Below, one piece after another: positions 10,985-61,900 of a stretch of DNA of 64,000 nt. The position numbers and the translations under genes were made by a program. The stretch is from an uncultured Muribaculaceae bacterium (GTDB taxonomy: Bacteria; Bacteroidota; Bacteroidia; Bacteroidales; Muribaculaceae). The stretch lies in contig CANQZG010000009.1 in assembly GCA_947628305.1 (NCBI GenBank), forward strand, positions 1-64,000, read 5' to 3'. Position 1 is the first letter of the stretch; each line of letters starts with the position of its first letter. The notes beneath the pieces are model-generated. The model did not search any database. It had not been told where the DNA came from and saw only the letters and a program-made list of their open reading frames with translations.

Positions 10985-11578
10985 TTACAAAACGCCGGCC
11001 GCATCAAACAGCGAACGGTAATAATCGGCCTTCCTTGCAATCGCAAGCGGATAAGCACGCGACGTCGACGGCATCCTGAAAATACGGAGTCGACGGCCGT
11101 CAGTCCATATCGCATCTTTCTCCTCGCCCATTCGCGGCACATCAGTCCCCGTAAGCTGCGCAATCACGCCGGCTGCCTTTTCCCCCGTAGTCGCAATCAC
11201 ATTACAACCGGGCATATCAGCGAGCAACGCGCCCAAATCGACAGGCCTGACAATTTCCAGGAACTTGTCAGAGGCATTGTCACGTAACCTGCGCACCTCA
11301 TGCCCAGTGTCATTCAATGCAATCCCTTTGTCGTCAAGGAATCGTTTTATACGCTCAAGATTGAAGCGTTTTTCGGCCTCATCCCAAAAGATGAAAGGGT
11401 CGTTGTAAAATACAAGTCCCATTATCCGCCAGAAATCATTCTGTCGGTTAGGATAATAGAAGTTCATAGACCACCGCGATGGCTTAGGCGGGAATGTCCC
11501 CATTATCAGCACTTTGGCATTCATCGGGACAAATGGAGACCAAGGATGTATTTCAGTCATATCGGCAGATAAATTCAT
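10985..11578 (-). CDS. Uracil-DNA glycosylase superfamily protein (Mug/deoxyinosine glycosylase-like)
   Basis: HPWSPFVPMNAKVLIMGTFPPKPSRW, FYYPNRQNDFWRIMG, MPSTSRAYP. The longer ORF start (11608) lies in the repeat element, so Met at 11578 is preferred. Confidence 0.82.
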   Translation of the reverse strand: MNLSADMTEIHPWSPFVPMNAKVLIMGTFPPKPSRWSMNFYYPNRQNDFWRIMGLVFYNDPFIFWDEAEKRFNLERIKRFLDDKGIALNDTGHEVRRLRDNASDKFLEIVRPVDLGALLADMPGCNVIATTGEKAAGVIAQLTGTDVPRMGEEKDAIWTDGRRLRIFRMPSTSRAYPLAIARKADYYRSLFDAAGVL

Positions 11579-11584
11579 ATTACC

Positions 11585-11784
11585 AAGTAACTGTTCAAAA
11601 TTAAACAATATTATTATCTCTAAGTAACATTCATGTTTTATCTTTTATACCCTCTGCGGCTTTATTTCGGTTAAAATCTATGCTTTCATCGGTCGTTTAT
11701 ATCTATAAACTCCCTTTTCAACCATAGATTTTCCCTCGAAATAAATCTCGCATACGATATAAATTAATTATGAACAGCTACTTA
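11585..11784 (-). repeat. ~200-bp foldback repeat element, copy B
   Basis: Reverse complement aligns over its whole length with 58786..58985. Ends TGAACAGCTACTTA / AAGTAACTGTTCA; internal hairpin GTTTATAGATATAAAC. Confidence 0.9.
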
Positions 11785-43782: not shown

Positions 43783-43976
43783 GAAGTCATCTTGACTTTT
43801 GAATCGTTGGCATTTCCAGCCATTCTTGAGGACGTTTTGGGGTTGATTCAAGGGAGCGATGCGGGCATCGTGACCGCGAAACAACCCCAAAACAGGCCAA
43901 GAATGACGGAAAGGTCTCGAAATAATTCACAGATGACGACTGTTTTTAATATTTTTCAATAAGTCAAGATGACTTC
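43783..43976. mobile_element. MITE-like palindromic element (~194 bp)
   Basis: 16-bp perfect terminal inverted repeats GAAGTCATCTTGACTT / AAGTCAAGATGACTTC; inner inverted arms CATTCTTG..TTTTGGGGTTG / CAACCCCAAAACAGGCCAAGAATG; ACA on both flanks. Confidence 0.65.
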
Positions 43977-57900: not shown

Positions 57901-58723
57901 AATCGTCAACTACCTGCGCAAGTCAAAGGAAATCGACGCCGAACTGCGCCGTAAGAAATTTGACATCTCGATTGGTGACGAACTCCCCTCGGGCATCATG
58001 CAGATGGCCAAGGTCTACATCGCCAAGAAACGTAAAATCAGCGTGGGTGACAAGATGGCGGGACGTCACGGTAACAAGGGTATCGTGTCACGCATCGTCC
58101 GCCAGGAGGACATGCCGTTCCTTGCCGACGGTACCCCCGTCGACATCGTGCTGAACCCGCTGGGTGTGCCTTCACGTATGAACCTCGGACAGATTTTCGA
58201 GACCGTACTCGGATGGGCAGGCCGCGAGCTCGGCGAGAAATTCGCCACTCCGATTTTCGACGGTGCGACACTCGACGACCTCAATGAATGGACCGACAAG
58301 GCAGGCCTTCCCCGCTACGGCAAGACCTATCTGTATGACGGCGGCACTGGCGAGCGTTTTGACCAGCCGGCGACCGTGGGTGTAATCTACATGCTCAAAC
58401 TCGGTCACATGGTCGAGGACAAGATGCACGCCCGTTCAATCGGCCCGTACTCGCTTATCACCCAGCAGCCGCTCGGCGGTAAAGCCCAGTTCGGCGGTCA
58501 GCGTTTCGGAGAGATGGAGGTATGGGCACTCGAGGCATTCGGCGCAGCCCACATCCTTCAGGAGATTCTCACCATCAAGAGTGACGATGTCAACGGGCGC
58601 AGCAAGGCCTACGAAGCGATTGTCAAGGGCGACAATATGCCCGTCCCAGGCATCCCCGAATCACTCAACGTGCTTCTACACGAGCTCCGCGGCCTCGGCT
58701 TGAGCATCAATCTGGAACAATAA
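54911..58723 (+). CDS. rpoB: DNA-directed RNA polymerase subunit beta
   Basis: Full-length beta; [47 protein letters not shown]. Confidence 0.99.
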
Positions 58724-58785: not shown

Positions 58786-58985
58786 TAAGTAACTGTTCAT
58801 AATTAATTTATACTATATGCGAAATTTATTTCGAGGGAAAATCGATGATTGAAAAGGGAGTTTATAGATATAAACGACCGATGAAAGCATTGATTTTTAC
58901 CGAAATAAAACGCAGAGAGTATGAAAGATAAAGAATGAGGGTTACTTAGAGATAGTAATATCGTTTAATTTTGAACAGTTACTTA
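58786..58985 (+). repeat. ~200-bp foldback repeat element, copy A, in the rpoB-rpoC intergenic region
   Basis: Terminal inverted repeats TAAGTAACTGTTCA / TGAACAGTTACTTA; aligns full length with the reverse complement of 11585..11784. Confidence 0.92.
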
Positions 58986-58999
58986 AACATCATTTTTCA

Positions 59000-61900
59000 A
59001 TGGCTTTTAGAAAAGACAACAAAATAAAAACCGGGTTTTCCAAGATTTCAATCGGCCTCGCATCGCCCGAGGAGATTCTTGAAAAATCAAGCGGTGAGGT
59101 GTTGAAGCCCGAGACCATCAACTATCGCACGTATAAGCCTGAACGCGACGGCCTTTTCTGCGAGCGCATCTTCGGCCCTGTAAAGGACTATGAATGCCAT
59201 TGCGGGAAATACAAGCGCATCCGTTACAAAGGCATCGTCTGCGACCGTTGCGGTGTCGAAGTCACAGAGAAAAAGGTGCGCCGTGAACGCATGGGTCACA
59301 TCAAACTTGTCGTTCCCGTCGCCCACATCTGGTATTTCCGCTCTCTCCCCAACAAAATCGGTTATCTGCTCGGTCTTCCCTCCAAGAAACTCGACTCGGT
59401 AATCTATTATGAACGTTACGTTGTCATCCAGCCGGGTGAGGTCGAGGGGGTCGAGAAACTTGACCTGCTCACCGAGGAGGAATATTTTGACATCCTCGAG
59501 AAACTCCCCCGCGAGAACCAGCTTCTCGATGACAGCGACCCCAATAAATTCATCGCCAAGATGGGTGCCGAGGCCATCTATGACCTGTTGCAGGGCCTTG
59601 ACCTCGACAACCTCAGCTACGAACTGCGCCACCAGGCCGACACCGACGGCTCGCAACAGCGCAAGACCGAGGCGTTGAAACGCCTTCAGGTCGTTGAATC
59701 ATTCCGTGCGTCACGTGGACGCAACAAACCCGAATGGATGATACTCCAGGCCGTTCCCGTGATTCCGCCGGAACTGCGTCCGCTCGTCCCACTCGACGGT
59801 GGCCGTTTCGCAACCAGCGACCTCAACGACCTTTACCGCCGTGTGATTATCAGAAACAACCGACTAAAACGCCTTATTGAAATCAAGGCTCCCGAGGTGA
59901 TTCTCCGCAACGAGAAACGTATGCTCCAGGAGGCCGTTGACTCACTTCTCGACAACTCACGCAAGTCATCGGCCGTAAAGACCGAGGCTAACCGCCCCTT
60001 GAAATCACTGTCAGACAGCCTCAAGGGCAAACAGGGACGTTTCCGTCAAAACCTGTTGGGTAAACGTGTCGACTACTCGGCCCGTTCGGTTATTGTCGTA
60101 GGCCCTGAATTGAAGATGCACGAATGCGGCATCCCCAAGAATATGGCCGCCGAACTTTACAAGCCGTTCGTCATCCGCAAACTCATCGAACGCGGTATCG
60201 TAAAGACCGTCAAATCGGCCAAGAAGATTGTCGACCGCAAGGAACCGGTCGTATGGGACATCCTTGAACACGTGATGAAAGGCCATCCCGTGCTGCTCAA
60301 CCGTGCCCCGACACTTCACCGTCTCGGCATCCAGGCATTCCAGCCAAAGATGATTGAGGGCAAGGCCATACAGCTGCACCCGCTTGCATGTACCGCGTTC
60401 AACGCCGACTTCGACGGTGACCAGATGGCCGTGCATTTGCCTCTCGGTAACGAGGCCGTCCTCGAGGCACAGATGCTGATGCTCGGCGCACACAACATCC
60501 TCAACCCGGCCAACGGTGCACCTATCACCGTGCCTTCACAGGACATGGTGCTCGGTCTCTACTATATCACCAAGCTCCGCAAGGGCGACAAGGGCGAAGG
60601 ATTGAAGTTCTACGGTCCTGAAGAAGCCGAAATCGCATACAACGAAGGCAAGGTGACACTCCATGCCCCCGTCTCGATTGTAGTCGATGACATCGATGAA
60701 AACGGCAACCCCATCAAGCATCTCGTAGAGAACACCTCGGTGGGCCGTGTACTCGTCAACCAGTATGTCCCCAAGGAAATCGGCTACGTCAACGAAATCC
60801 TTTCAAAGAAATCGTTACGTACAATCATTTCCAAGGTTATCAAGAACTGCGGTATCCCACGCTCGGCACAGTTCCTTGACGACATCAAGAACCTCGGTTA
60901 CTACATGGCGTTCAAGGGAGGCCTGTCGTTCAACCTCGGCGACGTGATTATCCCCAAGGAGAAAGAGGAATATGTAAACGAAGGTTACGAGCAGGTTCAG
61001 GAAGTGATGAACAACTACTCGATGGGGTTCATCACCAACAACGAACGCTACAATCAGATTATCGACATCTGGACGCATGTCAACTCGCGTCTCGCCAGCA
61101 CTCTGATGAAACAGATTTCAGAGGACCAGCAAGGGTTCAACCCTGTGTACATGATGCTCGACTCGGGCGCACGTGGTTCAAAGGACCAGATTCGTCAGCT
61201 CTCGGGTATGCGTGGTCTTATGGCGAAACCGCAAAAGAGCGGTGCCGAAGGCGGTCAGATTATCGAGAACCCGATTCTCGCCAACTTCAAGGAGGGTCTG
61301 TCGGTGCTCGAATACTTCATCTCTACCCACGGTGCACGTAAGGGTCTTGCCGACACCGCATTGAAGACAGCCGACGCAGGTTACCTGACCCGCCGTCTTG
61401 TCGATGTGGCGCATGACGTGATTATCCGCGAGGAGGACTGCGGTACGCTCCGCGGACTCGTATGCACCGAAATCAAGAACAACGACGAGGTTGTCGCATC
61501 GCTCGGCGAACGCATCCTCGGCCGTGTATCGGTCCACGACATCGTCGACCCCACCACAGGCGAAATCATTGTCGCAGCCGGCGAGGAAATCAACGATGCA
61601 GCCGCCGACCGCATCAACGCCTCCCCCATCGAATCGGTCGAAATCCGCTCGGTGCTCACCTGCGAATCCAAGCACGGCGTGTGCGCCAAGTGCTATGGCC
61701 GCAACCTGTCAAACAACCGTCTCGTGCAGAAAGGCGAGGCTGTCGGCGTGATTGCCGCCCAGTCAATCGGCGAGCCTGGTACACAGCTGACACTGCGTAC
61801 ATTCCACGTCGGTGGTGTCGCATCAAATATCGCAGCCGTCTCCAACCTGACGTCACGCTATGACGGTGTCCTTGAAATCGAGGAACTCCGCACAGTCAAG

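Follow-up and report, generated by a model that had tools for sequence, protein, structure and literature searches.

The window, by which we mean the whole stretch of 64,000 nt that was analysed, carries two copies of a foldback element, as claimed in an earlier note on this DNA: copy A on the plus strand and copy B, 91% identical to it, on the minus strand. Copy A is bracketed by the rpoB stop at 58723 and the rpoC ATG at 59000, both genes being confirmed with NCBIfam, and copy B lies upstream of a minus-strand gene (10985-11608) with a weak similarity to DNA-deoxyinosine glycosylase. To the 11585-11784 interval of copy B, one extra, mutated terminal base (11584) has to be added. The features of both copies are as follows.

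58786..58985, plus strand: copy A, complete 200-bp element in the rpoB/rpoC gap, the rpoC start codon being 14 nt past its right end
58786..58809, plus strand: left terminal inverted repeat of copy A, TAAGTAACTGTTCATAATTAATTT, the outer TA being the presumed target duplication
58807..58929, plus strand: structured core of copy A (model R1, 118.2 bits)
58856..58879, plus strand: apex of copy A, GG-GA-GTTTAT-AGAT-ATAAAC-GA-CC, with the tandem GA/GA mismatch
58956..58985, plus strand: right end of copy A, TAATATCGTTTAATTTTGAACAGTTACTTA, within which TAATTTTG matches the Bacteroidetes -7 consensus TAnnTTTG (putative promoter box)
11584..11784, minus strand: copy B, complete element, its right end about 5 nt 5' of the ATG of gene 10985-11608
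11640..11763, minus strand: structured core of copy B (model R1, 128 bits)

Neither copy has any coding capacity, the longest ATG frame being 28 aa in copy A and 15 aa in copy B. Around copy A, no intrinsic terminator was detected, nor any sigma-70-like promoter in a scan that does not cover Bacteroidetes promoters. When folded as RNA, copies A and B reached -66.5 and -66.3 kcal/mol, respectively, against -28.0 (sd 3.7) and -29.2 kcal/mol for dinucleotide shuffles (z -10.4 for each). The long hairpin proposed earlier is far stabler than the shuffles, but it is not a single perfect hairpin; about 40 nt beside the right end have no counterpart in the left arm. The proposed change of a G-U into a U-A pair, from AAAATC[G]ATG/CAT[T]GATTTT in copy A to [T]/[A] in copy B, is present in the predicted folds, and the replacement of TTATACT/AGTATGA by TTATATC/GGTATAA comprises a double change, from U-A to C-G, plus two changes on one side only.

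In the home genome (3.67 Mb in 72 contigs) there are 13 full copies, one internally deleted copy of 135 bp, solo ends, and remnants of 38 bp made up of two element ends and nothing else. Many more copies, whose absence had been set beforehand as refuting the proposal, were thus found in this genome and in its relatives, with matches in 51 of the 297 sampled genomes of the bacterial family, distributed over 12 of 30 genera. The elements combine a length of 200 bp, a lack of coding capacity, terminal inverted repeats and many dispersed copies, and the identity of copies A and B as MITEs, together with their structure, is well supported. The ends of the family, TAAGTAAC..GTTACTTA, are of the IS630 type, and each genome has its specific end variant, nearly alike on both sides (TAAGTAACTGTTCA in the home genome, TAAGTAACTCTTCA and TAAGTAAGTRTTCA elsewhere). 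A TA is present at both ends of the elements of this first family, with no empty site to compare: in the congener G045, where the empty site of copy A was sought, the intergenic region is too diverged for alignment, and nested insertions gave no usable case. Plasmid and phage records yielded zero matches. That the solo ends could be halves of a long autonomous element was rejected, no partner being found within about 10 kb around them. Palindromes of 37-38 bp made of two IS630-type ends only were observed at L020 (1487-1524), L023 (1487-1524) and L202, the last one being a Barnesiella record in which a DJ-1-like gene is flanked by two of them. Copy numbers are underestimated, since assemblies break at the elements; in G268, four contigs (L114, L115, L118 and L124) terminate some 50 bp into an element.

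Insertion sequences of 1.07-1.11 kb with ends of like design and a DDE_3 transposase, the protein domains of which were verified, occur in the same bacterial family and elsewhere in the order. In those of 1114 bp from the same family, the ends TAAGTAAGTCGTAAAAATTA / TAATTTTCAACATCTACTTA show 3-4 mismatches per 20 with the MITE end, and are therefore similar to it but not identical. The DDE_3 transposase was detected in only 24 of the 297 family genomes, with MITE and DDE_3 matches in one genome in G120, G080 and G089, and no DDE_3 / IS630 transposase match was obtained in the home genome. Consequently, either the home copies are relics, or the transposase that mobilised them has since been lost or was missed. 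An autonomous partner in the same genome is customary for an IS630-derived MITE, though not required. Judged from its sequence anatomy, the element is an IS630-derived MITE, a non-autonomous DNA transposon. Bacteroidales MITEs whose interiors differ also terminate in exactly this 22-nt right end (70 loci), indicating that the end is widespread in the order; from these records, the host would be a Bacteroidales bacterium. In several Bacteroidales MAGs (L171, L173, L183, L195, L213 and L232), MITEs having the same 22-nt right end and a low-complexity interior (gtcccgaagtcccgtgtcccgaagtc) were recurrently observed upstream of one gene (MKKIIIIDGGPRA..).

The core was aligned for 46 elements of many genera, its length being 122-125 nt throughout, and the caveat of n=2 formerly attached to the proposed structure no longer applies. 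RNAalifold gave 35 core pairs, 30 of which showed a double compensatory change, with a covariation score of 0.561 against 0.189 in shuffles. Not one of 500 shuffles attained this score; strong covariation, the lack of which had been named as refuting, is present. In a separate count, 97.0% of the cells paired (76.7% in shuffles) and 317 double-change cells were observed for 101 in shuffles, these cell counts being descriptive as the 46 sequences are related and the cells non-independent. When the partner was shifted by one column, only 43-48% of the cells still paired, instead of 97%. The apex retains two tandem GA/GA mismatches with two pairs between them, in 37/46 elements for the first and 32/46 for the second, and the apical stem is variable (GTTTAT, GCATAG, GAATAT, GTGAAG, GCTTAG), each version with its partner. 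These data bear out the view of the earlier note that the element is a conserved RNA or DNA structure and not random intergenic sequence. Because G-U cells (65) outnumber A-C cells (9) and the plus strand gives the more stable fold in each of the 46 elements (mean of -44.0 against -32.0 kcal/mol), the plus strand is the constrained, folded strand. It was again the better folder in 46/46 with DNA parameters, and the predicted fold and the G-U bias would suit single-stranded DNA as well. No relevant family was found in Rfam 15, either at the gathering score or at E<=1.

The covariance model of the core also detected, within the window, a third element that is absent from the earlier note.

43783..43976, plus strand: third element, 194 bp, with ends GAAGTCATCTTGACTT..AAGTCAAGATGACTTC unrelated to those of copies A and B
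43803..43925, plus strand: core hairpin of the third element (model R1, 49.9 bits, E 4e-9), with the apex GG-GA-GCGATG-CGGG-CATCGT-GA-CC at 43852

This element is flanked by a 3-bp direct repeat (ACA), its right end is 28 nt 5' of the ATG (44005) of an alpha-xylosidase/glucosidase-like gene, and it has about 8-10 relatives in the home genome. Over the whole home genome, the core model gave about 119 matches at E<=0.1, some of them being both strands of one hairpin, and the MITEs that contain these matches have ends of at least three types. The majority belong to elements of about 270-340 bp, with ends GAG..TGTTT or GAAGCTGTTT and two oppositely oriented hairpins. Identical 3-bp flanks, chiefly TAA or TTA, were found in 36 of the 44 doublet elements, and in 5 of 7 members of the 194-bp family. 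A 3-bp duplication of the TAA/TTA type resembles that of some IS5-family elements. Among the doublet MITEs of the home genome (L303-L319 and L351-L390), the terminal repeats differ between copies (AGAGTATGTTTGAA, AGAGCTTGTTTAG, AGAGTCTGTCTTGA, AGAGCCTGTTCAAA), both ends of an element varying in concert.

Local alignment of the hairpin of an IS630-type MITE from another genus (L108) with that of a home GAAGCTGTTT element having 3-bp duplications gave a z of 15, which, as judged by alignment, establishes homology beyond shape for some hairpin pairs. For other pairs, such as the first and the 194-bp families of the home genome, z was about 0 and only the architecture and the apex are in common, so convergence is possible there. 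Two further families of the order carry such hairpins, again with other ends; in the class-wide model search 8 candidates per genome were scored, so its low counts are no measure of distribution.

The position of the elements relative to genes was determined with start codons assigned from open frames alone. In the home genome, the right end lies -1 to 28 nt upstream of the ATG of a long frame in 14/14 copies (13 full and one deleted) and the left end in 0/14, and the folded strand is the sense strand of the adjacent start codon in all 14. Among 62 copies from other genomes, a start codon was found on the right only in 28, on the left only in 8, on both sides in 3 and on neither side in 23 (right versus left, p 0.001). 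The rule of placement before a start codon is therefore not universal. Of the 194-bp family, nine copies were considered: six have a start within 50 nt on the right and two have one on the left. In B. thetaiotaomicron, the 5' UTR has a median length of 32 nt and a commonest length of 23 nt (PMC7366714); with right ends so near to the starts, the inserts probably lie within the leader or substitute for it. No common function was seen among the downstream genes as read from their sequences (rpoC, lgt-, hisF-, murB-, leuB-like and others). A hisF-like gene with an element directly 5' of its start codon was observed in two genera (L064 and L101).

We infer a function for the element as a leader RNA, an outward promoter or a DNA-level hairpin, and we lean towards an IS630-type MITE whose core acts at the RNA level, as a leader or intercistronic hairpin that keeps the downstream gene expressed. 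An IS630 transposase would work in trans and insert the element at TA, the insertion point being the usual position of a Bacteroidales 5' leader; because the insert would occupy this position, the core would be transcribed as a sense-strand hairpin, either in the leader or between the genes of an operon, as for rpoB/rpoC. This hairpin, with tandem G-A at its apex, could then be bound or processed as RNA, so that the downstream gene would remain expressed despite the insertion. Such a hairpin could be a useful passenger, which would account for the same design in MITEs with unrelated ends and for some MITEs with two opposite hairpins. These opposite pairs fit the RNA view, since one hairpin is sense in either landing orientation, and they also fit the DNA view. 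We propose only tentatively the broader reading that Bacteroidales MITEs of different transposase families carry a structured RNA module not yet described (a long hairpin, a bulged A and a tandem G-A apex), which would be active in the leaders of target genes and would allow insertions upstream of start codons to be tolerated or regulated.

A mobile promoter, in which the -7 box of the right end would initiate transcription a few nt inside the element end, the hairpin being secondary, seems to us rather unlikely, and we are equally doubtful that copies before start codons persist by replacing the displaced promoter. The box TAnnTTTG is found in 12/14 right ends and 0/14 left ends of the home genome, where all copies present their right end first to the gene; transcription beginning about 5 nt inside the end would yield leaders of about 4-33 nt, within the measured Bacteroides range; two solo right ends reduced to 30-64 bp are still upstream of start codons; and promoters are carried by the Correia and BrickBuilt MITEs (PMC10969869). 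In other genomes, however, the presence of the box is not significantly linked to start-codon proximity (p 0.13), at least 4 boxless left ends precede genes, no consistent -33 element was seen, and a promoter leaves the conserved structure of the core unexplained.

Somewhat less probable still is a hairpin acting as DNA, i.e., a cruciform or a protein-bound single strand with a role in transposition or replication, the placement being then due only to target choice or selection. The occurrence of hairpins in several MITE end types, the doublets with one hairpin per orientation and the better folding of the plus strand with DNA parameters are in agreement with it, whereas the folded strand tracks the gene sense in the home genome and the single Y1 (HUH) transposase gene in this genome has its own different palindrome, with no core match nearby. 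It also speaks against this reading that transposons of the DDE type are mobilised as double-stranded DNA, with no known requirement for an internal hairpin. Finally, the elements could have no function, their palindromes being made and homogenised by arm-to-arm template switching and by the spread of a few source copies. This explanation, already disfavoured, we consider very improbable: cells are not independent, since the elements within a genome are related to one another and many of the double changes are specific to a lineage, but template switching, raised earlier as able to mimic covariation, would erase the G-A mismatches that are kept across genera and would not yield the excess of G-U over A-C cells, and the loss of pairing on a one-column slide also speaks against it.

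MITE interiors are commonly regarded as residual filler. In the present elements it is the structure of the interior that is conserved, and a single hairpin design recurs in elements apparently mobilised by distinct transposases. Should the hairpin function as RNA, a transposon-delivered leader would be carried by dozens of genes in each genome, among them essential genes such as rpoC, and whether mobile elements spread via harmlessness or via usefulness to the following gene would become testable. As MITEs, these elements are of a known kind; a conserved hairpin across unrelated end types is not described within the tools and literature searched, and a literature search, with most subscription journals outside its coverage, found no account of the MITE family.

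Among known systems, the BrickBuilt MITEs of Porphyromonas gingivalis, compared by literature description only, are likewise Bacteroidales MITEs and have reported promoter sequences (PMC10969869). Correia/NEMIS elements of Neisseria share the TA ends and a location mostly immediately upstream of genes, with reported promoters and hairpin transcripts cut by RNase III, and ERIC/IRU of enterobacteria are MITEs with TA ends that are co-transcribed and whose RNA fold affects mRNA stability (PMC10969869, PMC2229807); both differ in ends, host and core, being set apart by description and not by sequence. REP/REPIN sequences with RAYT are also dispersed hairpins, preceded by a GGAG-like foot and at times in inverted pairs, whereas the present hairpins lie inside MITEs with terminal inverted repeats. 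A RAYT/REPIN origin was rejected, given the different palindrome of the Y1 transposase gene and the lack of a core match near it. This single RAYT-like gene (L350) lies between inverted copies of the palindrome CCCCATAT..GGCGAGCGTAAGCGATGCC (1320-1400 and 1900-1960), which has GA/GA near its apex as well. RUP of Streptococcus pneumoniae, a MITE linked to IS630-Spn1, is similarly small and AT-rich with TA and IS630-like ends, and its transcript self-folds with the ends paired (PMC2229807, PMC3049150). In contrast, RUP is enriched between convergent genes (PMC3049150), whereas the home copies all precede start codons in one orientation, and a long covarying hairpin, topped by tandem G-A, makes up the present core.
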